This document shows positions 8,540 to 42,434 of a DNA stretch of 64,000 nucleotides, one piece after another. The translations under genes and the position numbers were made by a program. Source of the DNA: Glutamicibacter arilaitensis Re117 (GTDB lineage: Bacteria; Actinomycetota; Actinomycetes; Actinomycetales; Micrococcaceae); contig NC_014550.1 of the NCBI RefSeq assembly GCF_000197735.1, positions 3,224,001-3,288,000 of the forward strand, read 5' to 3'. The notes beneath the pieces were generated by a model. It was not told the DNA's origin, did no database searches, and saw only the letters and a list, made by a program, of their open reading frames with translations. Each line of letters opens with the position of its first letter. Within the stretch, counting starts at the first letter, position 1.

Positions 8540-8561
8540 GAACGGATTCCCACCCGCGTTG

Positions 8562-9550: not shown

Positions 9551-9684
9551 TACCCATGAGTCTAGTACCCGCGACGCGATAAACCGCGTGATGGCTAATC
9601 AACTCAACGCATTGGCAAGCCCAAGTTGGTTATCTATTATCCAAACGATAGAATATCGGATACCGTCACACTATCGAGGAGATC

Positions 9685-21350: not shown

Positions 21351-22501
21351 TGTGTTTTCCCCTTATCGGCAAAGACGACCTGTACGCTGGTTCCGCCGAG
21401 TCGAGAAGCCCCGACGCTGCAGCTGGCATTGAATTGCCGGGCCCTTTCCTGCATCCCGCGAATGCCATGTCCCACAGCATTTGGTTGCAGCCCGTCCCCG
21501 TCGTCATCCACGCTGACTCTAGTTGAACCGATGTGGATCACCACAGTGCTGGCGTGTGCATGGCGCAGCACATTGGTGACTGCTTCACGCAGGATCCACG
21601 CGATATGCGAACGCAATGTCAGGGGAATCTGCTCTGCGGTGCCGGCCACCGTGAATTCAAGATTATTATCCGTGCAGGCCTGCTGCAGTTCGGCCAATTC
21701 CGCTGCAAGGTCCTGACGGCTCAACCCCTGCACCGTAGTTCGCACCGAATCCAGGGCATTCACCGCCAAGGCGCTAAGCTGTTCCAGTTCCCCGCGCACC
21801 TGACCATAGTCTTCTTCATCAAGCAATCGCAGGGCCAGCTGCGCTTTGAGGTTCAGGGCCGTGAGCGAATGCCCAATGCCATCGTGGACATCCCTGGCGA
21901 CGCGTTCTTGTTCTGCCACCAGCAGGTAGTCACTGCGGATCTTCTCGGCCGACGCTGAGCGCGAAATTGCGGCAACAGTAATCGCATAGACCACCATGAG
22001 CACGATGTTCAGGCCAATCAGGAAGATTGCATCGAGGAATCGTCCAAATGCCAATGGCAAGGCAAAGCTGAGTACCAATACAATTGCATACGTGCCAATC
22101 AACCACTTCCTGGTCAGCAAGAACGCCGCATAGGAAGTGATGAACGGGAACAATCCCATGGCGGTCAACCCGGTGACCGGGATGCCTACGAGGATAATGA
22201 CGCAGAGAATCAAAAAATTCACGTGCGCCCGGCGGGTGCTTGTTCCTCCGCGTCCGATGGTCCAGGAGAACTTCGCATAAGACTGCAAGTAGACGCCTGC
22301 AAAGAGGGCTACCATCCCCAGCCCGATAATTCGGGTGGACAACGGATAGTCCTCGACAAGCAAATCCATGATCGGGAAGACCAGGAAGATCACCCAGACA
22401 CCGGCCACCAGCCAACCACGGCGATCCCAGAATTTCTGGTCATCATCCAAGCCGCATGCTTCCTGGCTGGCGCCGTTGCCATCGGGCGGGCATTGGCTCA
22501 T
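21347..22501 (-). CDS. Sensor histidine kinase (HisKA_3, DesK-like)
   Basis: This 384-residue membrane kinase has five or six hydrophobic helices over about the first 150 residues. The phospho-accepting histidine is in VARDVHDGIGHSLTALNLKA, and a HATPase domain follows with N-box ILREAVTNVLRHAHAS and G-box VGHGIRGMQERAR. The start ATG at 22501 (MSQCPPDGNG) overlaps the exporter permease stop as ATGA, which fixes it better than the longer open frame. It signals to the response regulator encoded next. The stimulus is unknown; an exported or membrane-active compound is plausible given the linked exporter. Confidence 0.9.
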   Translation of the reverse strand: MSQCPPDGNGASQEACGLDDDQKFWDRRGWLVAGVWVIFLVFPIMDLLVEDYPLSTRIIGLGMVALFAGVYLQSYAKFSWTIGRGGTSTRRAHVNFLILCVIILVGIPVTGLTAMGLFPFITSYAAFLLTRKWLIGTYAIVLVLSFALPLAFGRFLDAIFLIGLNIVLMVVYAITVAAISRSASAEKIRSDYLLVAEQERVARDVHDGIGHSLTALNLKAQLALRLLDEEDYGQVRGELEQLSALAVNALDSVRTTVQGLSRQDLAAELAELQQACTDNNLEFTVAGTAEQIPLTLRSHIAWILREAVTNVLRHAHASTVVIHIGSTRVSVDDDGDGLQPNAVGHGIRGMQERARQFNASCSVGASRLGGTSVQVVFADKGKTQ

Positions 22502-23253
22502 TGGCGAGCCTTGGCCTTGCGCGTGGCGATCACCGCGAACACGACGAAGATAATTGCCCATGCCACTAGGTTAGTCGCTGGCATCCATAATGGATCCGGC
22601 GCCATCTCAACTCCTTGAGGCATATCTTTCAACAGCGGGTAACGGGCTAAGGCTACATAACCGAACATCGGTGTGAAGCGAGCAGCGTCCAGCATCGCAC
22701 CTTCCAATGGCATGAAGACATTGCCGAAGAAAGCGAAGAACACCATCAGCCCTGAGGCCAAGCCCAACGCTGATTCGGATTTGAACAGCATTCCCACGCC
22801 GATGCCGTAGCAGGCGAAGATCATTGCTCCGAGCAGGATGATCAAGTAGCTTGCAGCCCAGATCCAGTCCTCAACCACTTCGGCGCCGGTAGCCGCACCC
22901 AAGGCGAAGACGATGGCCGCCGAAATTCCGGCGACGGTGGCAGCGACAATCATTTTGCTTCCCACGAACATCGCTGGTGGCATCTTGGTCAGTGCTATCT
23001 GGCGACCCCATCCCTGCATGGTTTCGGTTGCCACGGTGCCTGCGATAGCCACCGTACTGACCGCAGCACCATAGGCTGCCATGGAAATCATCAGATAGAA
23101 CTTGACGTTTCCGGAGCCCAGAGAAAATTCTGTGTAGCTGGGGATATTGCCAAACAGGATATACATGGCAGCCGGCAGCAGTAAGGCAAAAATCAGGTTG
23201 TATCCATCGCGGAAGTGCCGGGCGAATTCCACGCGAATATAGGTGCTCATCAT
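22498..23253 (-). CDS. ABC-2 type exporter permease
   Basis: This 251-residue integral membrane protein has about six helices and the ABC-2 permease layout: MSTYIRVEFARHFRDGYNLI at the start, GTVATETMQGWGRQIALTKM in the cytoplasmic coupling region, and FFGNVFMPLEGAMLDAARFTP before the last helix. It pairs with the ATPase encoded immediately upstream, which it overlaps by four bases. The substrate is unknown; daunorubicin/antibiotic-type exporters have the same layout. Confidence 0.88.
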   Translation of the reverse strand: MMSTYIRVEFARHFRDGYNLIFALLLPAAMYILFGNIPSYTEFSLGSGNVKFYLMISMAAYGAAVSTVAIAGTVATETMQGWGRQIALTKMPPAMFVGSKMIVAATVAGISAAIVFALGAATGAEVVEDWIWAASYLIILLGAMIFACYGIGVGMLFKSESALGLASGLMVFFAFFGNVFMPLEGAMLDAARFTPMFGYVALARYPLLKDMPQGVEMAPDPLWMPATNLVAWAIIFVVFAVIATRKAKARQ

Positions 23254-24167
23254 GATGCGTCCTTGGTCAGCTGTATAAATGCGTCTTCGAGGCTAGGTGC
23301 AGAAATTTCAAGGTCATAGCCTTGATGTTCCTGCAGGATGAAGGAGGCAAGACTGTCGGAATCAAGACATTGGAAGGAGAACCGCGACCCCATGCGCGCG
23401 GCGATCGTTGCTGATGGGTGAGCCCTTGCCACCTGCTCGGCAATTTCTTCCGAGGGGAAGGAGGCGCTGACTGTACGTCCAGAAATCAGCTTGCGCAGTT
23501 CTTCGGTTGCCCCGTCCGCGACGATCTTGCCTTGGCTCATCAGCACAGTACGTTCAGCGAAGTTCTGTGCTTCTTCCAGATAATGAGTTGCAAAAATGAC
23601 TGTCCGGCCGCTAGTCGCTTCACTTCGCATGGTGGACCAGAACTCGCGGCGGGCCATCACATCCATGCCCGCGGTGGGCTCATCGAGGATCAGTACGTCT
23701 GGGTCAGGCAGCAGCGCCAGCGCGAACTTGATGCGTTGCTGCTCGCCACCGGAGCATTTGCCCACACGACGTTTGGCGATCTTGGCCAGTCCGGTTCGTT
23801 CTATCACTGCGTCGACTCGGTCAGATTGCTGGTGCATGGCCGCAATGACTTTGACCGTTTCTTGGACCGTCATGTCTCGAAGCAGGCCACCGGTTTGCAG
23901 CACTGCGGAGACCCGTCCCGAGGAGACAGCCTGGTGTGGCTCCAGCCCGAGGATCTTCACCGATCCCGCGGTGGGCTGGGTCAGTCCAAGGATCATGTCC
24001 ACAGTAGTAGTTTTTCCGGCACCATTCGGACCCAGGAAGGCCACGATTTGCCCCGTTTGAATTTGGAGGTCAATGCCCTTAACGGCTTTGACCTTGTTGC
24101 GCGGAGTAGAGAATGTCTTTTTCAATCCGCTCAGCGAAACTGCGTCGGTTTTGATCAGCGTTTCCAT
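23250..24167 (-). CDS. ABC exporter ATP-binding protein
   Basis: This is a 305-residue ABC ATPase: Walker A LGPNGAGKTTTVDMI, signature CSGGEQQRIKFALALL, Walker B VLILDEPTAGMD and H-loop VIFATHYLEEAQ. The last 80 residues form the C-terminal extension usual in drug-export ATPases. It is the first gene of the unit ATPase-permease-kinase-regulator; all junctions overlap by four bases, so translation is coupled throughout. Confidence 0.92.
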   Translation of the reverse strand: METLIKTDAVSLSGLKKTFSTPRNKVKAVKGIDLQIQTGQIVAFLGPNGAGKTTTVDMILGLTQPTAGSVKILGLEPHQAVSSGRVSAVLQTGGLLRDMTVQETVKVIAAMHQQSDRVDAVIERTGLAKIAKRRVGKCSGGEQQRIKFALALLPDPDVLILDEPTAGMDVMARREFWSTMRSEATSGRTVIFATHYLEEAQNFAERTVLMSQGKIVADGATEELRKLISGRTVSASFPSEEIAEQVARAHPSATIAARMGSRFSFQCLDSDSLASFILQEHQGYDLEISAPSLEDAFIQLTKDAS

Positions 24168-24484
24168 GACTCATAGTCTTCCGTCTTTGCCCGGTGCTCA
24201 GAAGAGCAGAAAGTCATGTATCGCCCATGACCGTTGTCATGGGCGGAAACTAGTTGCACCGAAACAACCATGCCGTTTATTGCGCTGGAACTAGTTGTGA
24301 GCTTGGCAACTGAGGATTTCTCGATGCTAGATCCCCGCTCCGATCCTTTGCTGCGAAAAGCCATGATCCATCCGGGTCAACGAACAAATTGGAAATTTCT
24401 GTCCTTGTGATCGGGTTATCCCCTACCAGACTCTACGGATAGCAATCTGGGAAACTCACAGCGTATTCCCGTAGGATTTTTGCT
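24168..24484. other. Intergenic region between divergent exporter and DedA genes
   Basis: This 317-base gap has no convincing gene; short open frames here lack ribosome sites. It must hold the exporter promoter (reading left) and the DedA promoter (reading right). An AT-richer patch around 24220-24320 is the likeliest promoter zone. No strong hairpin was seen. Confidence 0.4.
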
Positions 24485-25189
24485 GTGCTAGATCATTCTT
24501 TGTTTCTTTCCCTTGTGACCGATTATGCGACCCCGACCATGGGCGCGGCGTTCCTGCCCGACTGGTTGAACCCGGCGGTCTTCCTGAACGACCCTGCGCT
24601 CGGCCCTTGGGTTCTGCTGCTGGTCTGCGGCATCGTCTTCGCCGAGACCGGTCTGCTGGTTGGATTCTTCCTGCCCGGCGATTCAATGCTGTTCACCGTG
24701 GGCATGCTCATCGCCACCGGCACCATCCACATTCCGCTGTGGCTGTTCTGCCTGGCGATCTTCATCTGCGCCTTCGCGGGTGACCAGACCGGCTACATGA
24801 TCGGCAAGAAGACCGGCCCGGCGATCTTCAAGAAGCCCGACTCCCGCTTCTTCTCGCAGGCCAATGTGGAACGCGCCCACGATTTCTTCGAGAAGTTCGG
24901 TGGCCGCGCAGTGATCCTGGCACGCTTCGTTCCAGTTGTTCGCACCTTCGTCCCAGTCATTGCCGGCGTTGCCAAGATGAACCACAAGACCTTCGTGATG
25001 TTCAACCTGATTGGTGCCGCCCTGTGGGGCATTGGCGTGACCCTGCTCGGCTACTGGCTGGGCCAGTTCTCCTGGATCGAGGAGAACATCGACTTGATCT
25101 TTATCTTGATCGTTTTGATCTCGGTCGTCCCAATCGGCATCGAGCTGCTCAAAGCTCGCAAGCCGAAGAAAAATACCATCGAAGACTAG
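24485..25189 (+). CDS. DedA family membrane protein
   Basis: This 234-residue DedA/SNARE-associated family protein is probably a lipid scramblase-like transporter. The conserved FAETGLLVGFFLPGDSMLFT segment lies near residues 52-72, the RFFSQANVERAHDFFEKFGG and RFVPVVRTFVPVIAGVAKM stretches near 115-165, and four to five hydrophobic helices are present. The GTG at 24485 follows an AGGA element; an ATG at 24539 (MGAAFLPDWLNP) is the alternative. The tail is lysine-rich (ARKPKKNTIED). Confidence 0.88.
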   Translation: MLDHSLFLSLVTDYATPTMGAAFLPDWLNPAVFLNDPALGPWVLLLVCGIVFAETGLLVGFFLPGDSMLFTVGMLIATGTIHIPLWLFCLAIFICAFAGDQTGYMIGKKTGPAIFKKPDSRFFSQANVERAHDFFEKFGGRAVILARFVPVVRTFVPVIAGVAKMNHKTFVMFNLIGAALWGIGVTLLGYWLGQFSWIEENIDLIFILIVLISVVPIGIELLKARKPKKNTIED

Positions 25190-25754: not shown

Positions 25755-26522
25755 ATGGACGCCGAGACGCTCACCACCATTTCGCAACAGCTTGCCGCAC
25801 TGGCCGAAGGCCTGCGGGATGGCAACCTTGCCGGGACCCCACAAGCGGCAACATCAGCGGACCTGCCAGTGCGGTTGATCCATACCCGCGCGGATCTGCT
25901 GCAATCCTTCGATTCCATGATCGACCGTGCCGTGCACTCCATCGATGCATTCGACCGCGGTGAACGGCCCGAGCAGTCCCAGCCGCAATCCGCGGCGCAA
26001 CCGGCCGCGCTGCAGCGAGGGGTGCGTTTCCGCGTCGTCTATGATCCTCTGGTATTCAGCCGCGACGACCTCACCCGCGGCATGCTCAATTCCGTGCGGC
26101 AGGGCGAGCTGGCCCGTGTCTCCACCAACATTTCCGCTCGGCTGCTCATCAGGGACCGCGAGGAATTCATCATCCAGCCGGCGGAGCCGGCAGCGGGGCA
26201 GCCACTGGCGATGCAGTTCAAATCCAGCGAACTGGCCGATTTCATCAATGGCGTATTCTCGACCATCTGGGACACCGCATTGCAGGTGGGCAACCGGCAG
26301 TTCGAGTCCGGGCGGCTGCTGGACGACGACGAGATCCAGATCCTGCGGCTGCTGGCCGCCGGGCAGAAAGACGAAGCGGTGGCCCGGGTCCTGGGGGTGA
26401 GCGTGCGAACGGTGCAACGCAAGGTCCAATCCCTGCAACGCAGCTTCGGCGCTGCCAGCCGGTTCCAGCTCGGTGCCATCAGCGCGCGGCACCTGCTGGT
26501 GGACCAGACGGGGCAGCCCTGA
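25755..26522 (+). CDS. LuxR-type transcriptional regulator with N-terminal sensor region
   Basis: This protein of about 255 residues ends in a LuxR/GerE helix-turn-helix (LDDDEIQILRLLAAGQKDEA, then SVRTVQRKVQSLQRSFGA). The first 180 residues contain an AALQRGVRFRVVYDPLVFS segment like the ligand or phospholipase-D-fold part of TrmB-like regulators. The ATG at 25755 follows an AAGGG element; ATGs further upstream in the same frame (25665, 25698) are possible. Targets are unknown; the divergent DUF2695 gene is a candidate. Confidence 0.78.
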   Translation: MDAETLTTISQQLAALAEGLRDGNLAGTPQAATSADLPVRLIHTRADLLQSFDSMIDRAVHSIDAFDRGERPEQSQPQSAAQPAALQRGVRFRVVYDPLVFSRDDLTRGMLNSVRQGELARVSTNISARLLIRDREEFIIQPAEPAAGQPLAMQFKSSELADFINGVFSTIWDTALQVGNRQFESGRLLDDDEIQILRLLAAGQKDEAVARVLGVSVRTVQRKVQSLQRSFGAASRFQLGAISARHLLVDQTGQP

Positions 26523-26662
26523 CCGGTACAACCCGACGTGTCGGTTTTACGACAGCGTTCTGGCACTTCCCAGGCGGCGACTCATGGCAGGCTGGGAATA
26601 GGGCACCCATGCCCGAACATGCCGCCTAATTTCCGTGCCCAAGGAGCGCCCGTTATGTTGTT

Positions 26663-26771
26663 GACAGCTCCTTAACTCCGAGGAATATAGGAGCTGTCGG
26701 CCGACCAATCTCGGCATGGTGTCTTGCCCCTGCTTATCCAATAGTCCGGGGGGTGTTGCCACCGAGATTGG
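26663..26771 (+). ncRNA. Candidate bridge RNA of the IS110 element
   Basis: Two stem-loops lie in tandem in the non-coding region before the transposase. GACAGCTCCT (26663-26672) pairs perfectly with AGGAGCTGTC (26689-26698). CCAATCTCGG (26705-26714) pairs perfectly with CCGAGATTGG (26762-26771) around a 47-base interior. This layout matches the guide-loop design known for IS110 bridge RNAs (IS621 type). Loop bases 26725-26731 and 26747-26755 are complementary to adjacent stretches at the element's right end (28109-28122), but these are simple G/C runs. The RNA itself is inferred. Confidence 0.5.
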
Positions 26772-26901
26772 GATGGCAGCGAGGTGATTGCTAATTAGGG
26801 GCGCGGCGCCAAAATGGACGCCTGTCATAACGTGGATGTAAGACTTTGCTACCGACGGTTGGTCGACCTTGAACAAAAACTAGTTCAAAGGAGCACTAGT
26901 C

Positions 26902-28098
26902 ATGATCACCACAGACATCGAGATTTTCCTCGGCCTGGACGTCGGGAAAACCGACCACTGGGCCTGCGCTGTCACCCAAGACGGCACCAAAATCTGGAAC
27001 AAAACCCTACCCAACGACGAAGCCAAACTCACCGCCGTGTATCAGAAGCTTTTAGCTCTAGGACATGTCTTGGTGGTCGTGGATCAGCCAGCCACCATCG
27101 GCGCCCTGGCCGTTGCGGTCGCTCAGCACCTCGGCATTCCGGTGGCATACCTGCCTGGGCTCTCGATGCGGCGCATCGCAGATATGTATCCTGGGACGGC
27201 GAAAACAGACGAAAAAGATGCCTTTATCATCGCGGATGCGGCCCGTACCATGCCGCATACCTTGCGTAGCATCCAGGTCTCTGACGAGGACGAAGCCACC
27301 TTAGGCATGCTCACCGGTTTCGACCTGGACCTGGCCCGTCAGATCACTCAGACCAGCAACCGGATCCGCGGGCTATTCACCCAGATCCACCCACCCCTGG
27401 AACGAGTGATCGGACCTTGGCTGGAGCATGATGCTGTTTTGGAGGTCCTCGCCACCTGGCCCACCCCAGCGCAACTGAAGCACGCGGGCAAAGCGCGGAT
27501 CGATGCGAAGCTGAAAAAGCAGGGAGCCCGCCGTCACACTGCTTGGGCCGGAGCCATCATGGATGCACTGGATGAGCAAACAGTGGTCGTGGTCGGCACC
27601 GACGCAGCCGGCCTGGTCCTCCCGCATCTGGCCCGCCAGATGATCTCGTTGCATGCTCAGCGTGTGGACGTGGCCACGCATTTGGAGGCAATGGTGGAGG
27701 CCCACCCTCTTTACCCGGTCCTGACATCCATGCCCGGGGTCGCCGTCAGGACCGCCGCGATCATCATCGCCGAGACCTCCGGCAAGACCTTCGCCAGTGC
27801 CGCATCACTGTCCTCTTACGCTGGGCTTGCGCCAAACACGCGCCAGTCTGGCACCTCGATCAAGTCCGAGCGCGTCAGCCATTCAGGCAACAAACGGCTG
27901 AAGCGAGCGCTCTTCCTCTCGGCGTTTGCCTCGATCAGGTTCGACCCGACCAGCCGGGCCTACTACGACCGGAAACGTGCTCAAGGCAAACGCCATAACC
28001 AAGCACTTATCGCACTGGCCCACCGACGGCTCACAGTCCTGTTCGCCATGATCCGTGACGGGTCACTCTATGACGTGCCAGAGCTGAAAATAGCTTGA
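26902..28098 (+). CDS. IS110-family transposase (DEDD recombinase)
   Basis: This is a 398-residue IS110 transposase. The N-terminal RuvC-like DEDD domain begins FLGLDVGKTDHWACAVTQDG, with the next acidic residues in VVVDQPATIG and KTDEKDAFIIADAART. The C-terminal Tnp domain has LTSMPGVAVRTAAIIIAE, the catalytic-serine region ASAASLSSYAGLAPNTRQSG and GNKRLKRALFLSAFASI. AAAGGAG lies ahead of the ATG. It is intact and full length, so the element may be active. Confidence 0.93.
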   Translation: MITTDIEIFLGLDVGKTDHWACAVTQDGTKIWNKTLPNDEAKLTAVYQKLLALGHVLVVVDQPATIGALAVAVAQHLGIPVAYLPGLSMRRIADMYPGTAKTDEKDAFIIADAARTMPHTLRSIQVSDEDEATLGMLTGFDLDLARQITQTSNRIRGLFTQIHPPLERVIGPWLEHDAVLEVLATWPTPAQLKHAGKARIDAKLKKQGARRHTAWAGAIMDALDEQTVVVVGTDAAGLVLPHLARQMISLHAQRVDVATHLEAMVEAHPLYPVLTSMPGVAVRTAAIIIAETSGKTFASAASLSSYAGLAPNTRQSGTSIKSERVSHSGNKRLKRALFLSAFASIRFDPTSRAYYDRKRAQGKRHNQALIALAHRRLTVLFAMIRDGSLYDVPELKIA

Positions 28099-28122
28099 CT
28101 TTTTACATAGGGGCACCCCCCG

Positions 28123-28446
28123 ACCGCGTGGATCAACCAATCGGTAAAGCTGGAAGAAGGTGAAAAATGTAGGCCGCTTAGCACCCACTCGTCTCACTTG
28201 AATTGAAAATTTGCGACCTCACGGTGAGTGCAAGCTCTTGTTTTTAACCCGGGTTGCATGCCTAAGCCTCCTGCCCGCATGGGCACGAGGACCAAGTTAT
28301 CGATTCTCTACTTCCACATGAACTAATCCCATGATGATTCAAGGCAGTGAAGGAGAACTCTGCGCTGAGGAAAGCTCTCTTGAGATCAAGAGCACTTCAA
28401 ATTGAGCTTAATTCAAGGTATTATGAAAAGCTGATCATAACACTTG
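28123..28446. other. Intergenic leader between IS110 and the SipW-type operon
   Basis: No gene is visible in this stretch of more than 300 bases. It contains a small TGCCC/GGGCA hairpin near 28278 and AT-rich stretches near 28395-28440. These are the likely promoter zone for the operon that starts at 28492. Composition is clearly more AT-rich than the nitrate region. Confidence 0.4.
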
Positions 28447-28487
28447 CCCTCGGCCGGCTTAGCCAGTTGAGGGTTCTAGGCCGGGGG
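28447..28487 (+). promoter_or_regulatory. Ribosome-site hairpin in the operon leader
   Basis: CCCTCGGCC (28447-28455) pairs over nine positions, one G-U, with GGCCGGGGG (28479-28487), the purine-rich stretch four bases before the first ATG. An alternative pairing, CCCTC with GAGGG (28469-28473), would release that stretch. The two folds exclude each other, so translation of the first gene could be switched. This was read from sequence only. Confidence 0.45.
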
Positions 28488-28491
28488 CATA

Positions 28492-29040
28492 ATGAAAAAA
28501 ACAACTAAAGGGGCATTAGCCGCGGCAGCAGCAGGGTTTCTGCTTCTCGGAGGAGCCGGAACTATTGCTTACTGGAGCGATAGCTCCACCATCAGTGGTG
28601 GAACAGTGAATACCGGCAACCTGGCCCTTAGTGATGCCGCTTGTTCCGAGAACTGGCTCTACGCCCCGGGGAATTCTGGCGCTGGCGATCCAGTAAGCTT
28701 GCTGGTCCCGGGAGATGCGATCACTAAGGAATGCACCTTCACGGTTTCCGCAACTGGTGACAACCTCACCGCAACTCTTAACACCCCTGACTCGGCATTG
28801 ATCACGGCCGAGGGTACTGACACTTTCGAAGCCAGCGTCGCCGCTACCTATAACCTCGCTGGAAGTCCTGTAACAGAGGACACTCCGATCACCGACGCCA
28901 ATGATGGCCAGACGCTAACCGCGACCGTTACCGTAACGTTCCCATTCGGCGACGAAGCCGCCGTCAACGCGAACGACACCCAGAACGTCACCGCTTCTTT
29001 GAACGACATCGCAGTCACGCTGGTGCAGACAGAATCCTGA
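28492..29040 (+). CDS. SipW-dependent secreted protein (alternate signal peptide, TasA/camelysin-like)
   Basis: This 182-residue exported protein has a positively charged start (MKKTTKGALAAAAAGFLLLG), then GGAGTIAYWSDSS and ISGGTVNTGNLAL. This is the 'alternate' signal peptide and mature N-terminus of proteins processed by SipW-type peptidases (TasA, camelysin and actinobacterial relatives). The mature part is acidic and threonine-rich with a repeated beta-strand character, like the Ig-like fold of TasA fibres, and has only two cysteines (DAACSENW, TKECTF). It is first in an operon with two SipW-type peptidases. A structural surface or matrix protein is the likely role. Confidence 0.8.
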   Translation: MKKTTKGALAAAAAGFLLLGGAGTIAYWSDSSTISGGTVNTGNLALSDAACSENWLYAPGNSGAGDPVSLLVPGDAITKECTFTVSATGDNLTATLNTPDSALITAEGTDTFEASVAATYNLAGSPVTEDTPITDANDGQTLTATVTVTFPFGDEAAVNANDTQNVTASLNDIAVTLVQTES

Positions 29041-29048
29041 TCTGAGCT

Positions 29049-29612
29049 ATGCACCGTGTGAGAACCGCCGGAAGAGGGGTGATCCGAATCATTTCTTGGG
29101 TCACCATCCTCAGCTTCACCGCAGCTCTTGTGGTTTCTGTGCTCATTCCACGGCTTGCTGATGCCACGCCGTATGCGGTTCTCACTGGCTCCATGCAACC
29201 GCATCACCCGCCAGGTTCGCTAGTTGTGGTTCGTCCGGTGCCAGAGTCGGACATCCACGAAGGCGATATCATCACCTACCAGTTGGAATCGGGAAAGCCG
29301 ACGGTGGTCACCCACCGAGTGATCCATCGCAGTACCAACTTAGAAGGGCAGGTTCTCTTCACCACCCAAGGTGACGCCAATAGTGTCGCCGACGCTAAAC
29401 CAGTCGCCCACGTGCAGATCAAGGGAAAGCTATGGTACTCAGTGCCGTATCTGGGATACGCCAACACGATCATCACGGGCAAGGAGCGCGACATCGCGCT
29501 GGCTATTGTTGTATCGATACTGCTGGGTTACTCGGCTTACATGTTTATCAGTGCAGCCGGTGTAAAGCGGAAAGAAGGCAAGACCTGTAGAACAAACGGG
29601 GCTTCCTCATGA
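29049..29612 (+). CDS. sipW: SipW-type signal peptidase I, first copy
   Basis: This 187-residue membrane peptidase is of the archaeal/ER-like type. One N-terminal helix (about 10-34) is followed by the catalytic serine in AVLTGSMQP (Ser48) and a histidine in VVTHRVIH (His89), which replaces the lysine of ordinary bacterial LepB. FTTQGDANSVADAKPV is the conserved third region, and a second helix lies near 150-172. It should cut the alternate signal peptides of the neighbouring secreted proteins. It starts eight bases after the first substrate gene and overlaps the LPETG gene by four bases. Confidence 0.88.
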   Translation: MHRVRTAGRGVIRIISWVTILSFTAALVVSVLIPRLADATPYAVLTGSMQPHHPPGSLVVVRPVPESDIHEGDIITYQLESGKPTVVTHRVIHRSTNLEGQVLFTTQGDANSVADAKPVAHVQIKGKLWYSVPYLGYANTIITGKERDIALAIVVSILLGYSAYMFISAAGVKRKEGKTCRTNGASS

Positions 29613-30241
29613 GGCGCTACTCTACGATCATGCTGTTGATGCTCATCTTCATGACGGGCACTATGGCTCCAGCTCGAGCCACTGATGGATTTGGAGTCAG
29701 CAGTGATGGCATGAATTGGGGCCGCACTGTAACGGAGCCACTTGTTCATTCTCAGATGCTTTGGGTTCCTGGAGATGAAATGTCTGGGACCTTCTATATC
29801 CGCAATCGACATGATGGGCCTGCTTCGCTCACCGTCGAGGTTATCAGTGCCGATACTGGTTCTCTCATGGACACCGGTGACCTTCACATCAGCGCGATCG
29901 GTACAGAGAATGAATGGAATACAATCTCGCGGCCCGGAACTCACGAAATAGTGAGCTCACCGAAATTAGCGCCCGGTGTGGTGACACCGGTTCAAGTGAA
30001 TGTTTCCTTCGCGGCAGCCTCAGGAAACATCTCGCAACTGCGATCCGCGAAATTACATTTTCGAGTGACCTTAGCAGATACGACTCCGCCCGATTCAGAT
30101 AATGACCGTCCAGGGGGTTGGTTACCGGAGACCGGCATACAGGACTCGATCTGGTTCGCGATCCTAGCAGCGATACTCATCAGCGTCGGATTGCCTCTGA
30201 TCATTTGGCGTAAAAATTCGGAAGAGAATCCTCATGACTAA
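29609..30241 (+). CDS. LPETG wall-anchored surface protein
   Basis: This 210-residue secreted protein has a conventional signal peptide (about 1-24, ending APARA), a 150-residue beta-rich extracellular domain beginning GFGVSSDGMNWGRTVTEP, and a full sortase sorting signal: LPETG at 172-176, a hydrophobic helix (180-200) and a positive tail (WRKNS). It should be fixed to peptidoglycan by a sortase; none is encoded in this window. Its gene overlaps both neighbours (ATGA with the peptidase, eight bases with the next gene). It may be the cell-wall anchor of the secreted proteins made by the same operon. Confidence 0.85.
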   Translation: MRRYSTIMLLMLIFMTGTMAPARATDGFGVSSDGMNWGRTVTEPLVHSQMLWVPGDEMSGTFYIRNRHDGPASLTVEVISADTGSLMDTGDLHISAIGTENEWNTISRPGTHEIVSSPKLAPGVVTPVQVNVSFAAASGNISQLRSAKLHFRVTLADTTPPDSDNDRPGGWLPETGIQDSIWFAILAAILISVGLPLIIWRKNSEENPHD

Positions 30242-30821
30242 AAATACGACACAGCGCGCAGCTCTGGCGCGCAGAACTTCTAGCTCCGGGAAAATCCGCG
30301 CACTTTTATCCCTTGGCATCATTCTGGGAGTCGGAGCTGTCAGTACCATGGCAGCCTGGTCTGATTCCGCGACGGTTCAAGGGGGAACTTTTACCACCGG
30401 CACTCTCGACTTGAAAATCGGCACCCCGCCGGTGGATAACAATCCACCCCAATTCACCACAGACTTCGCCATGAGTAATATGCGTCCAGGAAGCACTACA
30501 GACGCCGTCTTGAAAGTCACGAACAGCGGAAGTATGCCTTTCGGGTTTACTGCTACCGCTTCGGCTACCAACTCAGGAGCCGGCGCTGATCAATTGGGAT
30601 CCGCGTTGACACTCAAGGCTTATAGTAATAGCAGCTCTGGATCATGTACGGGAGAACCGGTTAGCACTGGTAACACGGCAGCTGATTTTGCTTTACCTCC
30701 CCAGCAACTCGCCGTCGCAGCAACACAAAACCTCTGCTTTCGAGCTACCTTACCAACTAACGCGGCGGCCGCACTGCAAGGCAAATCAAGCGTCATCACT
30801 CTGACATTCACTGCTAAGTAA
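30234..30821 (+). CDS. SipW-dependent secreted protein, second
   Basis: This 195-residue protein has a basic 20-residue lead, a hydrophobic stretch (IRALLSLGIILGVGAVSTMA) and the marker AAWSDSATVQGGTFTTGTLD found at the mature start of SipW substrates. The mature chain contains NMRPGSTTDAVLKVTNSGSM, typical of the TasA-like fold, where such loops bind neighbouring subunits. Two cysteines (GSCTGE, NLCFRA) could form a disulfide outside the cell. It overlaps the LPETG gene upstream and joins the second peptidase by TAATG. Confidence 0.8.
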   Translation: MTKNTTQRAALARRTSSSGKIRALLSLGIILGVGAVSTMAAWSDSATVQGGTFTTGTLDLKIGTPPVDNNPPQFTTDFAMSNMRPGSTTDAVLKVTNSGSMPFGFTATASATNSGAGADQLGSALTLKAYSNSSSGSCTGEPVSTGNTAADFALPPQQLAVAATQNLCFRATLPTNAAAALQGKSSVITLTFTAK

Positions 30822-31381
30822 TGCTAATCTCCAAAAACATCGCACTGACCTTGAAGAACGCGCTCAGGTCCAGGTTGATACATATATGCCGTGAAGTCCT
30901 ACTCACCACAGGTGCGATCCTGGGCGCCCTATGCATTCTTCTGACCGTGGCCTCGCTCGTGTGGAACATCAAGCCGCTCGTGTTTCGTTCGGGATCAATG
31001 TCCCCAACCATCGAAACCGGCGCTCTTGCCTTCTCCAAACCCGTCCCTGCCTCGGAACTCGCGGTCGGTGATGTCGTCAGCGTCGAAACCGCCGACGAGA
31101 GCCGTGTCACCCATCGCATCACTCGGATTGAGGTTGAAGGTCCTGACTTCGCACTGACCCTTCGGGGGGATGCCAATAACGTTGATGATGCGGAATCTTA
31201 TGTGGTGGATTCCGCTGACCGGGTCTTCTTCACGGTACCAAAAGCCGGATACGCGGTGTCGTGGCTATCTGGCTCGGCTGGGACGTTCGTTGGAGGAGTG
31301 GTCGTTGGACTCGTAGTTATTGTATTCCTGCGCCGTCCAAGAACTCCTTCAGAGGAAGCCGCCACGAGGGAAGATCTGTGA
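30821..31381 (+). CDS. sipW: SipW-type signal peptidase I, second copy
   Basis: This second archaeal-type signal peptidase, 186 residues, is quite different from the first. An N-terminal helix (about 27-48) is followed by LVFRSGSMSPTIETG with catalytic Ser59, VTHRITRIEV with His98, and LTLRGDANNVDDAESY. A C-terminal helix (about 145-168) is followed by a short basic tail. Having two peptidases in one operon suggests that each serves different substrates. It is coupled to the genes on both sides by overlapping stop and start codons (TAATG and TGATG). Confidence 0.88.
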   Translation: MLISKNIALTLKNALRSRLIHICREVLLTTGAILGALCILLTVASLVWNIKPLVFRSGSMSPTIETGALAFSKPVPASELAVGDVVSVETADESRVTHRITRIEVEGPDFALTLRGDANNVDDAESYVVDSADRVFFTVPKAGYAVSWLSGSAGTFVGGVVVGLVVIVFLRRPRTPSEEAATREDL

Positions 31382-31707
31382 TGTTAGCGCTTTCTAAAAT
31401 TTATCCGCACCACTCCGAAATGCCTGAATCGCTCGTTCCGTCTATCCCGTCAGTAACTACCTCGGAGATTCGAGGTTCCTTCGTTGAGTCCTTACCGATG
31501 ATCCGTTCAGGACGTCGAGACTTCTTGGAATCAGAACCAAGGTTCGGTGGTCGTGTTTTCTGTGTCGATGGGAAATTTCTGACCGCTCTGCCCCTCGCCC
31601 AGAACTCCTGTTGTGCCACGGGCTACGGCCCTTCTGAGATAGCTCCGCCCCAGCGCAACATCGAAATGCTCCGGAAGACCGTCTATAGAAATGGGCAAAC
31701 GCGGTGA
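31381..31707 (+). CDS. Unrecognised small protein inside the SipW operon
   Basis: This is a 108-residue open frame with no known family, signal peptide or membrane helix. It begins MLALSKIYPHHSEMPESLVP and contains three cysteines (RVFCVDGK, NSCCATG). Evidence that it is real is positional: its ATG overlaps the peptidase stop as TGATG and its stop overlaps the next start as GTGA. Against it, the composition is not clearly coding and no ribosome site stands out. It may be a coupling spacer rather than a functional protein. Confidence 0.5.
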   Translation: MLALSKIYPHHSEMPESLVPSIPSVTTSEIRGSFVESLPMIRSGRRDFLESEPRFGGRVFCVDGKFLTALPLAQNSCCATGYGPSEIAPPQRNIEMLRKTVYRNGQTR

Positions 31708-32216
31708 AAACATTAGAGACACTCACTGTTGCTACCCGTATCAAGGTGCTTCTACTTGCTGTTGGGGTCATGCTTCTGGCGTTCAGTCCCGCTCCGGTTC
31801 AGACAGACGCCGCTTGGACCGATACAGCCCAAGCCTCGGCAGGAATGGGCACGATCACCCTTCCGGAAGTCACTGAACCTAAATGCCAAACAGTGGGAAG
31901 CGATGCCGTTATCACTTGGAATCCACCATCGGGAGGGCTACCCGCGGGGATGCGCTACAAAGTCACCCTTGACAATATCCCCGCCAGACCTAATACCCAA
32001 GGGGTCGTGTATACGAAAGATACGACCCACACCTATGCAAAACGTGGCCTCGGTCATCCACACCCTAATGGCACCATTCTGAACGTAAAAATATTCGCTG
32101 TCATCGACACTTCGACCGCGCCACCAGGCGCCGTGGAATGGTCCAGTTCCGGCAAGCCGACTTCTTCCCTAACGATTCAATATGTGCACTGGGGCAAAAA
32201 ATACAGTTGCCAATAA
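31704..32216 (+). CDS. SipW-dependent secreted protein, third
   Basis: This 170-residue exported protein starts with GTG, overlapping the previous stop. A hydrophobic segment (IKVLLLAVGVMLLAFSPAPV) is followed by TDAAWTDTAQASAGMGTITL, the substrate-type mature start seen in the other two secreted proteins. The mature part has CQTVGSDAVITWNPPSGGLP, resembling a fibronectin-III-like strand pattern, and ends in a cysteine. It is the last gene of the operon. It is more divergent than the other two, so it may be a minor or capping component. Confidence 0.72.
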   Translation: MKTLETLTVATRIKVLLLAVGVMLLAFSPAPVQTDAAWTDTAQASAGMGTITLPEVTEPKCQTVGSDAVITWNPPSGGLPAGMRYKVTLDNIPARPNTQGVVYTKDTTHTYAKRGLGHPHPNGTILNVKIFAVIDTSTAPPGAVEWSSSGKPTSSLTIQYVHWGKKYSCQ

Positions 32217-32480
32217 GACCACAAATCCTCCGCTGGAGCAGAATACGATGACTAAGGGGGCCGGACCTTAGCTCCCTGCCCCTTTCGCTCCCATTCTTCA
32301 ACGCCTCAGGGCGACGTTCGGATCTGCGGCAGGGCCTTCGAAGGTAGCGAACTATGCATACTCGTACAAATGCCCCTCTTCGTCTTGGATTCCTAGATAT
32401 ACGTCTTGATTAGCATAGTTCGTGAGTGTCCAGTTCGTCCGAGATAGCTCGGTTCTTCATCGGAGTCACTTCGCTACTCT
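32217..32480. other. Intergenic region after the SipW operon
   Basis: No gene was recognised here. It holds an inverted repeat, CGAACTATGC at 32348-32357 and GCATAGTTCG at 32413-32422, with 55 bases between arms, which may be an old element end or a regulatory site. The stretch runs up to the ISL3 element. Confidence 0.4.
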
Positions 32481-32500
32481 CCAAAAACGGTCGTTTATGG
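32481..32500. repeat. CGGTCGTTT-type motif beside ISL3 element, copy 1
   Basis: CCAAAAACGGTCGTTTATGG directly abuts the left inverted repeat of the ISL3 element. Related copies sit at 56184 and 60153, also just left of ISL3 elements. The core AAACGGTCGTTT is an inverted repeat. Confidence 0.6.
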
Positions 32501-33947
32501 GCTCTTCAGGATTGAGAGTGTAGCCACCTAAAACCAACACCCGGGATCCCGGGCATGTCGCCAAAACGCGAAAAAGTCGAGGTCTTCCAGAAGAATGGAA
32601 GTTACCACACAAACATTCTTGAAAGACCTCGACGTTGCTCAATTCTACCTTCACCGAACCAGACCTCACCACATTCACCGGACTTGATGGCTTAGGACTC
32701 ACCGCAATTGGGCAGTACCTGGGCGCAGCGAAAGCCGAGATCCTCTGCCACGTCACCACCCCGAACCCCTGGTGCCGCACCTGCGGGGGCGAAGGAACAC
32801 CGAGGGATACCGTCACCCGCAGACTTGCCCACCAACCCTTCGGTTGGCGTCCGACCGTCCTGGTCATCAAACACCGACGCTACCGCTGCGGCCACTGCCA
32901 ACGGGTGTGGCGCGAAGATCTGTCCAGAGCTGCACCGGAACGCCAGAAAATCAGCAGGACCGGCCTGGCCTGGGCCTTGAACGGTTTGGTCTGCCAACAC
33001 CTCTCCGTCTCACGGATCGCCGAAGGCCTCGGCGTCACTTGGAATACCGCCAACGACGCAGTGCTGGCTGAAGGCCAACGCCTGCTGATCGATGACCCTG
33101 CACGGTTTTCCGGCGTCAAGGTCTTAGGCGTAGACGAACACGTATGGAGACATACCCGCACCGGCGACAAATACGTCACCGTCATCGTGGATCTCACCGC
33201 CGTGCGCGATGGCACCGGCACCGCACGCCTGCTGGATATGGTTCCAGGAAGGTCCAAAGCCGTATTCAAGACCTGGCTGGCCGGACAAGACGACCAGTGG
33301 AAGCAGGGCATTGACGTGGTCGCGATGGACGGGTTCACCGGCTTCAAAACCGCAGCTGCCGAAGAGCTTCCCCACGCGGTGGAGGTCTTGGATCCGTTCC
33401 ATGTCGTCAAATTGGGTTCCGAGGCCCTGGATCAATCCCGGCAGCGGGTCCAGCGCGAACAGCATGGCCGGCGAGGACGCAAGGATGACCCGCTGTATAA
33501 GTGCCGTCGGACCTTGACCACGGGGCTGTCCTTAGCCACTGACAAGCAGAAAGCCAAGCTTGAAGACCTGTTCAAGGAGCCGGAGTATGAGCCGGTTCAA
33601 CTGGTCTGGAGCGTGTATCAAAAGATGGTGGATGCCTACCGGCAACCGAAGCCCGAGGTCGGACGGTGGGCCTTGGAGCAACTGATCAACGAAGTTGGCA
33701 CGAAGGTACCGAAAGGGTTGCCGGAGCTGAAAAAGCTCGGCGGCACCCTGCGCAGGAGGAAGACGGACATTCTCGCGTACTTTGATCATATTGGTAGTTC
33801 GAATGGTCCTACCGAGGCTTTGAATGGCAGGTTGGAGCATCTGCGAGGTATCGCGTTGGGGTTCAAGAATCTGGCGCACTATATCGCACGGTCGTTGCTG
33901 GAGACTGGCGGGTTTAGGCCTTGGTTACACTCTCAATCCTGAAGAGC
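32501..33947 (+). mobile_element. ISL3-family insertion sequence, copy 1
   Basis: The left end GCTCTTCAGGATTGAGAGTG (32501 on) and the right end (33926-33947) are perfect 22-bp inverted repeats around a transposase gene. Size is 1447 bp, normal for ISL3. I see no target duplication (GTTTATGG against ACGAAAAC), so flanking DNA may have recombined. The right repeat shares its last bases with the terminator hairpin of the next gene. Confidence 0.9.
32635..33942 (+). CDS. ISL3-family transposase
   Basis: This is a 435-residue ISL3 transposase. The N-terminal zinc-finger-like part has CRTCGGEGTPRDTV and YRCGHCQRVW. The DDE domain carries VLGVDEHVWRHTRTGDKYVT, VVAMDGFTGFKTAAAEELPH and, near the C-terminus, SNGPTEALNGRLEHLRGIAL. 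It starts with TTG at 32635 near the left inverted repeat. It is intact to its natural end (FRPWLHSQS), unlike copy 3 of the window. Confidence 0.92.
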   Translation: MLNSTFTEPDLTTFTGLDGLGLTAIGQYLGAAKAEILCHVTTPNPWCRTCGGEGTPRDTVTRRLAHQPFGWRPTVLVIKHRRYRCGHCQRVWREDLSRAAPERQKISRTGLAWALNGLVCQHLSVSRIAEGLGVTWNTANDAVLAEGQRLLIDDPARFSGVKVLGVDEHVWRHTRTGDKYVTVIVDLTAVRDGTGTARLLDMVPGRSKAVFKTWLAGQDDQWKQGIDVVAMDGFTGFKTAAAEELPHAVEVLDPFHVVKLGSEALDQSRQRVQREQHGRRGRKDDPLYKCRRTLTTGLSLATDKQKAKLEDLFKEPEYEPVQLVWSVYQKMVDAYRQPKPEVGRWALEQLINEVGTKVPKGLPELKKLGGTLRRRKTDILAYFDHIGSSNGPTEALNGRLEHLRGIALGFKNLAHYIARSLLETGGFRPWLHSQS

Positions 33948-33998
33948 ACGAAAACAGCAGCCAACCGCGATCAGCGGTTGGCTGCTGTTTTCGTGCTC
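33944..33998 (-). terminator. Long terminator hairpin after the aminotransferase gene
   Basis: A perfect 25-bp stem (33944-33968 with 33974-33998) with a five-base loop lies ten bases after the aminotransferase stop. The outer GAGC of the left arm is also the tip of the ISL3 inverted repeat, so the element sits right against, or inside, the terminator. Confidence 0.85.
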
Positions 33999-34007
33999 TA
34001 CGAAGGA

Positions 34008-35204
34008 CTAATCCGTCGGAAGCGCCTGGCGCAAGAATGCCGCCACGCGTTCCAGCGACTCGGCCACCTGCTCGTATCCTGCGGCGAATGACAGCCGGAT
34101 GAACAGGTGCCCTTCGAACGGGTCGAAGTCGCCGCCCGGGGTCAGGGCCACCTGGGCACATTCCAGCACCTGGCGGCAGTACTCCCCGGCGGTGCCGAAG
34201 CGGTCGAGCACACGCTCGCTGAGCCGCCCGTAGAGGTAGAACGCGCCGTCGGCCGGCGCTGCTTGCTCGATGCCCAGTTTTCCATAGTTGGCCAGCACCA
34301 GGTCACGGGTCTTCGCGAGCTCAGCGACCCGTTGCTCCGCCTCGGCAAGGCTCGACGGCTCAAAGGCAGCTACCACCGCGCGCTGGGCTGGAGCCGGGGC
34401 GCACAAGGCAAGGTTCGAGGCCAGCGCGTCAACCGTTGGCATCAGGTCATCTGGAACGATCATCCAACCCAATCGCCACCCAGTCATCCCCCAATATTTG
34501 GAGAAGGAAGAGACCACGATGGATGAACGGGAGAACTCCCACGAGGTGTGCGCCTTGCGGTCCTCGACGAATTCAATGCCGTGATAGATCTCGTCGCTGA
34601 TCAGCCGCACCTCATTAGCTTCGCACCACGCGGCCAGCTCAGAGAGCTCCTGGGCGCTGAACATGGTTCCGGTGGGATTGTTCGGCGACGCTACTACCAG
34701 TCCGTCAAGGCGCCCATGTTCCTTCTTGGCTTCTTCAAGCAACTGCACCGTGGGTTGGAAACGCTGTGCTGCACCGGTGGGCAGGTCCACAACTTCCAGC
34801 CCCAGGGCGCGAAGAATATTGGCGTAGGCAGGATAGCCCGGGCGGGCCAAGGCCACTACGTCCCCGGCGTCGAAGGCGGCTAGGAACGATAACTGGAATG
34901 CTCCGGAAGATCCCGTGGTCATCACGAAGTTCTCTGCCGGAACCTGCACGCCATAGGTACCGAGGTAGTGCTTGGCCAAAGCCTGGCGGGTTTCGAGCAG
35001 ACCTGCGGTCGAGGTGTAGCCGAAATCCGCGTGCTGGGCATGGAGCGTGGCAGCCAGTTCATTCACCGCCGCTGGTGCACCACCGCCAGGTTCGCCCACG
35101 CACAACGAGATCACGTCGTAGCCGGCAGCTCGCATGGTGGCGACCTGATCAACAATTTGCATCACTTCAAAGGGAGCAACTTGGGAACGCTGGGAGGCTT
35201 GCAC
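34008..35204 (-). CDS. Pyridoxal-phosphate aminotransferase, class I/II
   Basis: This is a 398-residue fold-type I aminotransferase. VISLCVGEPGGGAPAAVNEL gives the N-terminal substrate-binding part, MTTGSSGAFQLSFLAAFDAG the phosphate-binding loop, VASPNNPTGTMFS the conserved NPTG, LISDEIYHGIEF the Asp/Tyr pair, and VVSSFSKYWGMTGWRLGW the Schiff-base lysine. It is likely an aspartate/alanine-type or aromatic aminotransferase; the donor cannot be fixed. It reads towards the ISL3 element and ends at a long hairpin. Confidence 0.9.
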   Translation of the reverse strand: MQASQRSQVAPFEVMQIVDQVATMRAAGYDVISLCVGEPGGGAPAAVNELAATLHAQHADFGYTSTAGLLETRQALAKHYLGTYGVQVPAENFVMTTGSSGAFQLSFLAAFDAGDVVALARPGYPAYANILRALGLEVVDLPTGAAQRFQPTVQLLEEAKKEHGRLDGLVVASPNNPTGTMFSAQELSELAAWCEANEVRLISDEIYHGIEFVEDRKAHTSWEFSRSSIVVSSFSKYWGMTGWRLGWMIVPDDLMPTVDALASNLALCAPAPAQRAVVAAFEPSSLAEAEQRVAELAKTRDLVLANYGKLGIEQAAPADGAFYLYGRLSERVLDRFGTAGEYCRQVLECAQVALTPGGDFDPFEGHLFIRLSFAAGYEQVAESLERVAAFLRQALPTD

Positions 35205-40712: not shown

Positions 40713-42434
40713 TGTCCTCTCTCAGAACATCGCTTACACCCTGACTCACAACATCGCTTACAGGATGTATCAGCACATCGCTGACAGGTAGCAAGACATG
40801 CTGGCAGGCCCCTTCTGGTCAGCGATCAATTTGATAATTAAACGTGTCAAATTCATTATCGGCGTCGATACGCCGCCAAATCATCGAGTTCGATCCGGGC
40901 CTGCCAGACTCCTTGAGTATCTCGCAGTTCTGCAAGGAACTGGGAATCAGCAGACCCTCCTACTACAAAGTCAAAGAGCGATTCGTTGCCGAAGGGAACA
41001 AAGCACTCAACCCGCACTCCAGAGCCCCGAAAACAGACCGGCGCATCTACAGCGACCAAACCAAAACCACGGTCCTACGCATCCGCAAGCGACTGGCCAA
41101 GGACGGGTGGGACAACGGGCCCTTATCTATCTGGTTCGAAAGCCTTGATACTCAGGAGTTCGGTGAGCTACGCCCCTCGGTGGCCACGATCGGCAGGATC
41201 CTTGCCGAGGCCGGAGCTACCAAGCGAAACCCGCGCAAACGCCCCCGTAAATCATGGCTGCGCTTCGCCCGTTCGCATCCGATGGAAATGTGGCAGATCG
41301 ACGGACTGGAATATCGATTGTTCGACCAGGACGCGACCAAGGCGATGATCTATCAGCTCATTGATGACGGCTCCCGATTCGACGTGGGTACGCGGTGCTT
41401 TGAGCAAATGGAGAACGCGCAAGATGCGATGGAAACGCTCAAGGCAGCGTTCGCGGAGTATGGGGTGCCGCAACAACTTCTCAGCGACAATGGTGGTGCT
41501 TTCAATCTTTCTCGGCAGGGCCTGGTGAACCAGACTGAAATATTCTTGGCTAGCGTGGGCTGCGAAGCGATTACGGGCCGGTTCAGTCATCCGCAAACGC
41601 AAGGCAAGAACGAACGCAGCCATAATACGTTGACCCGGTTCCTCGACGCGCATGCACCACATAACCTGGCGGAGCTTTCCACGTTGTTGGAGCAGTATCG
41701 GAATCACTATAACCACCGTCGGCGCCACCAGGCGCTGAAAGTGGGGCACACGTATCTGACGCCTGCTCAAGCGTGGGAAGCCGGTGATCATCGTGGTTCG
41801 GATGGCGTGGCCATCGATATTGCCAGGATACAGGCCAAAGCCCAGTCGTACTTGGACAAGGCTCTGGCCGTGAAAGCCGATTTGGTTCCGGAGGGCGTAG
41901 TGGATGATGGGCTTCAGGTGTTGGGACGTACGAAGGTTGAAAACTACACCGGTAGCCCCAGCGTACTGACGGATCAACGCGATGATGTGATCCAGATTCG
42001 ACGGACGAATCCGCAGATCTATTTTCGTGGCCGTGTTTTCAAGGTGCCAGCTCACCTGATCGGTGAATACCAGCTGGTCTTGAGCAAGGATGCTTATACG
42101 CTTTACAGCACTGTTGATGGTGAGCAATCACTGTCATTTCCGTTACCGGTCAGGCTGCATTCCAGTGCGCGTTTGGTGCCGTTGTGGCAGGTGTATGGAG
42201 CCCGGATCAGGGATCCGAAGCCGGCCTGGACTCAGAAGCGGATCGAGTATGAGGACATCTACTATTCGTCTGACGTCGCCGTTTCCTAGCTAAGGAGATT
42301 CGTTGCGCACGGTGTCAGCGATGTTGTGAGTTTGGTTGTCAGCGATGTGCTGATGCCGCGTGTCTACGATGTCCTGAGTTTGGTTGTAAGCGATGTGGTG
42401 AGTTCGTGTGTAAACAAACTACCGAGTGATTACA
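40713..42434 (+). mobile_element. IS481-like element with multi-repeat ends and 15-bp target duplication
   Basis: The element runs from TGTCCTCTCTC to GATTACA (TG...CA ends), 1722 bp. It is flanked by perfect copies of ATGGAAACTCGAGCT (40698-40712 and 42435-42449). Removing it with one copy restores the start of the HAD gene without a gap. Both ends carry several copies of CATCGCTTACA-type motifs in inverted orientation: three at the left (40727-40790) and four at the right (42310-42405). These are likely transposase-binding sites. Confidence 0.88.
40844..42289 (+). CDS. IS481-like (DDE) transposase
   Basis: This is a 481-residue integrase-core transposase. An N-terminal helix-turn-helix (LSISQFCKELGISRPSYYKV) is followed by the rve domain with MWQIDGLEYRLFDQDATKAM, LLSDNGGAFNLSRQGL and the final glutamate in QTQGKNERSHNTLTRF (D, D, E). 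About 150 further residues extend beyond the usual IS481 length and include a beta-rich tail (IYFRGRVFKVPAHLIGEYQL). It starts with GTG. It appears intact, so transposition is possible. Confidence 0.88.
   Translation: MSNSLSASIRRQIIEFDPGLPDSLSISQFCKELGISRPSYYKVKERFVAEGNKALNPHSRAPKTDRRIYSDQTKTTVLRIRKRLAKDGWDNGPLSIWFESLDTQEFGELRPSVATIGRILAEAGATKRNPRKRPRKSWLRFARSHPMEMWQIDGLEYRLFDQDATKAMIYQLIDDGSRFDVGTRCFEQMENAQDAMETLKAAFAEYGVPQQLLSDNGGAFNLSRQGLVNQTEIFLASVGCEAITGRFSHPQTQGKNERSHNTLTRFLDAHAPHNLAELSTLLEQYRNHYNHRRRHQALKVGHTYLTPAQAWEAGDHRGSDGVAIDIARIQAKAQSYLDKALAVKADLVPEGVVDDGLQVLGRTKVENYTGSPSVLTDQRDDVIQIRRTNPQIYFRGRVFKVPAHLIGEYQLVLSKDAYTLYSTVDGEQSLSFPLPVRLHSSARLVPLWQVYGARIRDPKPAWTQKRIEYEDIYYSSDVAVS

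Follow-up and report, generated by a model that had tools for sequence, protein, structure and literature searches.

Seven genes and their families

The DNA analysed here is a stretch of 64,000 nucleotides from Glutamicibacter arilaitensis Re117 (contig NC_014550.1, positions 3,224,001 to 3,288,000), hereafter called the window. At 28492-32216 it contains an islet of seven open reading frames (ORFs), all on the plus strand, which include genes for two SipW-type signal peptidases, g2 and g5 (Table 1). There is an 8-base gap between g1 and g2, a 4-base overlap (ATGA) between g2 and g3, and a run of 8 bases common to g3 and g4 (ATGACTAA), all read directly; g4/g5 (TAATG) and g5/g6 (TGATG) overlap by one base, and g6/g7 (GTGA) by four. 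The compact seven-gene block claimed in the preliminary description was borne out, with its junctions as stated except for g3/g4, where the overlap is 8 bases. Codon scores in the islet were weaker than in the four flanking genes scored, a scan of the islet gave about as many promoter-like and terminator-like matches as shuffled sequence, and no Rfam match at the gathering threshold was found over 26500-34500.

Table 1. Features in and beside the islet, in window coordinates
Feature	Position	Strand	Description and basis
IS110-family transposase gene	26902-28098	+	Left boundary; NF033542, 246.6 bits
g1	28492-29040	+	SipW-type substrate, TIGR04089 family (sub1)
g2	29049-29612	+	SipW-type signal peptidase, sipA type; TIGR02228 and tree
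g3	29609-30241	+	Exported protein with LPETG sorting signal (anchor); TIGR01167 and family alignment A8
g4	30234-30821	+	SipW-type substrate, putative TasA-like beta sandwich (sub3); TIGR04088, profile, model and fold search
g5	30821-31381	+	SipW-type signal peptidase, sipB type, unfused here; TIGR02228, tree and AU test
g6	31381-31707	+	Orphan, 108 amino acids, between g5 and g7 (linker position of fused relatives)
g7	31704-32216	+	Exported protein with TDAAWTD site, fibronectin-III-like family (sub4)
ISL3-family element	32493-33955		Right boundary; 34-nt imperfect inverted repeats, transposase 32635-33942

Three proteins of the islet had been proposed as SipW-type substrates, and the nearly identical motifs IAYWSDSS (g1), MAAWSDSA (g4), and DAAWTDTA (g7) are all present. 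In NCBIfam, g1 matched TIGR04089 (192.5 bits) and the alternate signal peptide model TIGR04088 (33.4 bits, cut-off 19), and g4 matched TIGR04088, also at 33.4 bits; by this test both pass as SipW-dependent substrates. No match was found for g7 in NCBIfam or with TIGR04088, and g7 is a putative SipW-type substrate by its cleavage motif and family, without a curated model.

The proposed likeness of the substrates to TasA gained support for g4 and not for the other two. The g4 family profile matched the TasA structures 5of1 and 8aur (E 1.6e-4), and a Foldseek search with the predicted g4 model gave as best match the archaeal bundling pilus subunit of P. calidifontis (7ueg), a weak one (E 2.6e-3, 12% identity). 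Close relatives of g4 share 75-92% identity and are 195-198 amino acids long. The camelysin model PF12389 scored 15.7 bits with g1 and 20.2 bits with g4, both under its gathering score of 22.5, and is carried by 5 of 49 relatives of g4. The g1 profile found neither TasA nor any other informative solved structure in the PDB, and the family of g7 is fibronectin-III-like. It may be that g1 and g4 polymerise.

A Ser/His active site without a Lys general base is the mark of SipW-type (ER-like) signal peptidases. Both g2 (95.7 bits) and g5 (63.7 bits) exceeded the cut-off of the signal peptidase model TIGR02228, profile searches returned SEC11 matches, and the motifs TGSM, T-H-R, and G-D-A-N are present in g2, while SGSM, T-H-R, and G-D-x-N are invariant in alignments of the sipB type. 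The assignment of the two to the SipW type follows from TIGR02228 membership together with the Ser/His motifs. They had been described as unlike each other, and their identity is indeed 31% across the matched part. In a tree of 60 sequences the sipB type formed a clade of 22 rows (support 100/100), and the sipA type comprised 26 rows (99/95), some more divergent relatives falling outside them. Judged by sequence, g2 and g5 are thus members of two deeply separate SipW-type peptidase families. Each grouped beside the same two Nocardioidaceae loci (Marmoricola and Nocardioides; supports 95/58 and 87/85, respectively) and not with congeners. With groupings defined after inspection of the tree, the approximately unbiased (AU) test rejected the forcing of g5 with the 13 congener sipB rows and L070 (p 0.003) and did not reject that of g2 with the matching sipA rows (p 0.20).

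The description of g3 as an LPETG sorting-signal protein was upheld by TIGR01167 (20.5 bits, cut-off 15.9), although the Pfam LPXTG model gave 13.9 bits, under its own cut-off of 20; the protein shows the LPxTG motif, hydrophobic stretch, and positive tail that mark sortase substrates. Among the 12 rows of the anchor alignment A8, the motif contains Pro in three (LPETG in the window, LPNTG, and LPITG), and the rest have L(A/G/S/L)xTG; a congener outside A8 (L040) has LPETG. A sortase gene was looked for inside the locus and not found. The genome codes for one class E and one class C sortase, both far from the locus, and the accessible part of one paper describes LAXTG as the motif of class E sortases of Actinobacteria (PMC5148588). 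No informative match to solved structures was obtained with the g3 profile. It may be that g3 is attached to the wall and ties g1 and g4 to it. Elsewhere in the genome (L057, G000:C3 at about 296 kb), the class C sortase gene adjoins a gene for a protein with an LPLTG C-terminus, probably a separate sortase-built pilus locus.

The locus in relatives and the origin of the window copy

A search with g2 matched 36 of 58 genomes. Thirteen of 17 congeners have two peptidases about 1.6 kb apart, one has a single peptidase, and three have none; all 13 two-peptidase loci show the same order, sub1-sub2-sipA-anchor-sub3-sipB::sub4, where the last item is a fused gene, and stand beside what we take to be a glutaminase gene. 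In the class, a g4 search matched 39 of 394 genomes, and seven of the nine best-scoring non-self loci kept the gene set. Such conservation, the lack of which had been named beforehand as refuting the proposal, was therefore found at both levels. Because homologues of g1-g5 and g7 keep their order in 13 of the 17 congeners, and because of the codon score of g6 given below, the islet is more than a chance array. It is not one of a kind; the window copy is a divergent, split variant, flanked by insertion sequences (IS), of a locus in several actinobacterial families. Compared with the canonical locus it lacks sub2, its sipB and sub4 are separate, and g6 lies between them. At the glutaminase site the window genome has a second, different SipW-type locus (L044, G000:C3:3439000-3456000, at 7355-9919), whose genes are a weakly sub3-like one, sipB, an LPPTG ORF that overlaps sipB in a different frame, and a sub4-like one. 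The peptidase ORF of that locus ends shortly after a run of G. A full six-gene actinobacterial locus also occurs in a Bacillota record titled Sporosarcina beigongshangi (L072, NZ_JADHDY010000011.1); its peptidases fall beside congener ones in the tree, and contamination or mislabelling is likely.

The flanks of the islet were compared with stretches of five congeners. In two of them (G012 and G015) the matches stop at 25429 or 25533 and restart at 34026, the sequence in between being no longer than some 240 and 140 bases; the segment that carries the LuxR-like gene, the two IS elements, and all seven genes is therefore absent from this site. Two others (G003 and G017) have the LuxR-like gene followed by other genes, and in the fifth (G008) the two flanks are about 27 kb apart. 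The GC content of 28500-32500 is 0.52-0.57, against mostly 0.56-0.66 in flanking 500-base windows, but it is weak evidence of foreign origin by itself because native windows at 22000-24500 reach 0.49-0.60. The placement of the peptidases in the tree, the IS elements, and the empty site together make it likely that the islet was acquired from outside the genus. A composite transposon was considered and dropped, since the two flanking IS genes belong to different families. An IS481-family transposase gene at 40844-42289 adds to the IS110 and ISL3 elements, so that 26.9-42.3 kb is rich in insertion sequences, and a perfect 26-nt inverted repeat (33943-33999) lies over the right end of the ISL3 element, adjoining the 3' end of an aminotransferase gene.

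Whether the two peptidases divide the substrates, as had been suggested, was assessed in a table of 38 fetched loci plus the window, with profiles built partly from these loci. Loci were counted as sipA-only at a sipA score of at least 150 bits; four (L052, L053, L055, and L056) were dropped for weak sipA scores, of which L052 and L053 have weak sub3-like matches. Thirteen sipA-only loci contained sub1 in 11 cases and neither sub3 nor sub4 in any; the three sipB-only loci contained sub3 (3/3) and sub4 (2/3) and no sub1; and all 19 loci with both peptidases, including the window, had sub1 and sub3. This co-occurrence, together with the full support of the sipB clade, would suit a strict split in which sipA cuts sub1 and sub2 and sipB cuts sub3 and sub4. 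However, in two of the nine class loci fetched with g4 (L134 and L140, checked by tblastn) sub1, sub3, and a sub4-like gene occur where sipA is the sole peptidase, the three substrate motifs are nearly identical, and the loci are phylogenetically non-independent, most having been collected with a g2 query. A strict split is thus doubtful: co-occurrence lends the division partial support, and exclusive use of one peptidase is contradicted by L134 and L140. Where both peptidases exist there may be a division of labour, which is not required.

Peptidases fused to exported domains

In the congeners, sipB::sub4 is one chain whose C-terminal part resembles g7; its length is 367-456 amino acids when counted from the first start codon, and it is unbroken in 12 of 13. 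The remaining one, in G. ardleyensis (L030, G010, minus strand near 8020), is interrupted within the second membrane helix by an in-frame stop. For one congener's fused protein, 107 homologues were found among the 7992 candidates scored, which were those with the most words in common; 72 of the 107 were aligned, and the 35 omitted were chiefly lower-scoring rows, plus P0052. Beyond residue 180, 64 of the 72 contain the strict motif T-x-A-A-F/W, compared with 0.9 +/- 1.0 in shuffled tails, and T-x-A-A/S-F/W stands at the aligned position in 68. When rows omitted from the alignment were counted too, 72 of the 90 homologues of at least 300 amino acids had the strict motif. Two Cys and two Trp are invariant in the exported part. 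A model of one fused protein (mean predicted local distance difference test score, pLDDT, 82; predicted template modelling score, pTM, 0.49) showed a helix, a peptidase fold matching SEC11C, a second helix, a low-confidence linker, a third helix, and a confident beta domain matching fibronectin type III (1ten).

The sipB alignment, whose matches include sipA-type proteins as well, hit 178 of the 396 genomes in the order. Among the best 30 loci 28 were readable, and 15 of these extend at least 200 residues beyond the active-site motif, a mechanical criterion by which not all tails are confirmed as exported domains; the other 13, including the window, do not. Nine of the 15 end in a sorting-like signal. 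Signal peptidases fused to LamG-type domains (PF13385) were also seen (P0080, P0086, and P0094, proteins without a given name).

The exported domain of the fusions seems to have a free counterpart in g7. Alignment A2 of g7 with the C-terminal domains of fused peptidases gave 18-24% identity with Thr, Ala, Cys, and Trp columns in common, and the sub4 profile, of which the window row is itself part, gave g7 121 bits. Profile A2 matched fibronectin type III (FN3) proteins (best E 1.9e-4), and the fused relative P0005 reached 23.7 bits with Pfam fn3, under the cut-off of 25. It was this relative, not g7, that was folded; its exported domain matched 1ten in Foldseek with a TMt of 0.83. The sub4 domain is a separate gene in the window, in L044, in L054, and weakly in Dietzia (24 bits).

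The orphan g6 matched nothing in NCBIfam, Pfam, or PHROGs. Its codon score is -0.05 in its own frame, near those of g3 and g4, versus -0.33 to -0.55 in the five other frames. A search of 5.8 billion proteins returned g6 itself and three 108-amino-acid proteins with 86, 82, and 63% identity; it was present in 1 of 395 sampled genomes of the family, that of the window, and tblastn of the other fetched loci gave no convincing match, the sole strong one (L060) being the window's own stretch. That g6 is a real gene is very probable because these three relatives turned up, and we regard it as probably a real but rare gene. Its position is what suggests an origin from the linker of the fused relatives. 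The Nocardioidaceae proteins include a fused one (L063), and a true sister relation of g5 to them would make fission at g6 the simpler account of the window copy; support for that branch is only moderate.

In the fused proteins the peptidase would be followed by a second membrane helix, a linker, a third helix that is hydrophobic and has T-x-A-A-F/W after it, and the exported domain. The simplest mechanism would be a cut at the internal site by the peptidase or its neighbour, so that sipB or sipA would free the fused domain. It is unlikely that the C-terminal domain instead remains uncut and attached to the peptidase as an exported module for sensing or docking. The fusions do recur with a variable exported part (fibronectin-III-like, LamG in P0086, sorting-signal types in 9 of 28 loci), as such a role would allow; yet the motif is kept at its aligned site, the domain occurs as a separate gene, and a peptidase left uncut would be tethered to the wall by any C-terminal sorting signal. 

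Interpretation and comparison with known systems

We favour, with reasonable though far from full confidence, the reading that the islet is an actinobacterial TasA-like surface or matrix locus, split and probably horizontally acquired, in which g7 is accessory and the second peptidase belongs to a type that often has its own substrate on the same chain and probably sets it free. In such a system g1 and g4 would be exported through alternate signal peptides and cut at A-x-W by g2 and g5, predicted to be membrane-bound, and the mature proteins would assemble as surface or matrix subunits. A sortase encoded elsewhere would put g3 in the wall as a wall-attached partner, and g7 would be an accessory fibronectin-III-like exported protein. 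A broader proposal has about an even chance: that across Actinomycetes the second, deeply separate SipW-like peptidase type forms a single chain with an exported substrate of its own, which follows an internal cleavable signal and is fibronectin-III-like, LamG-like, or a sorting-signal protein. Such a molecule would both mature neighbouring TasA-like subunits and release its accessory subunit at a fixed ratio, and the window islet would be a mobile split version with an orphan at the break. That the islet is a decaying, IS-trapped remnant of little function, as its weaker codon scores, the IS genes on either side, the separate sipB and sub4, the rare orphan, and the background level of promoter-like and terminator-like matches might suggest, is improbable, given seven open frames with tight junctions, intact catalytic and cleavage motifs, and the close kin of g4 and g6 (63-86% for the latter).

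SipW peptidases and TasA-like fibres have been studied in Bacillota, and related pili in archaea. A search of the open-licence literature, which holds few subscription journals, by titles and abstract openings found no study of such a locus in Actinomycetes. The conserved two-peptidase locus makes Glutamicibacter a tractable system, and the fusions offer a direct way to test how a dedicated signal peptidase and its substrates are paired. What is of most interest was seen beyond the islet coordinates: signal peptidases with a probable substrate on the same chain, an unusual arrangement.

According to the accessible parts of the sources, SipW-type peptidases trim their substrates, and TasA, CalY, and BsaA form polymers (PMC9674648, PMC4292775, PMC13082335, PMC7395162). 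The tapA-sipW-tasA operon of Bacillus subtilis (PMC9674648) resembles the islet in its SipW-type peptidase, alternate signal peptides, TasA-like subunit, and accessory exported partner. One peptidase is described there in the text available, whereas the islet, known from its genes, has two types, a sorting-signal protein, a fibronectin-III-like substrate, and an orphan. In Bacillus cereus, two TasA-like proteins (TasA and CalY) and CapP are encoded near a SipW peptidase; the sections consulted describe a single SipW and present assembly as sortase-independent (PMC4292775, PMC13082335). The sipW-bsaA operon of Clostridium perfringens likewise combines a SipW-type peptidase, an exported polymer-forming subunit, and further exported proteins, but as far as the available portion goes it has one peptidase, an adjoining sortase gene dispensable for the polymer, and two-component regulators in the operon (PMC7395162). 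The bundling pilus subunit of P. calidifontis is a weak fold match of the g4 model and differs in being archaeal, besides the low identity of the match. Set beside these systems, the islet is made of known families in a new arrangement; the curated models name single proteins, and not this order, the second peptidase type, or the fusion.

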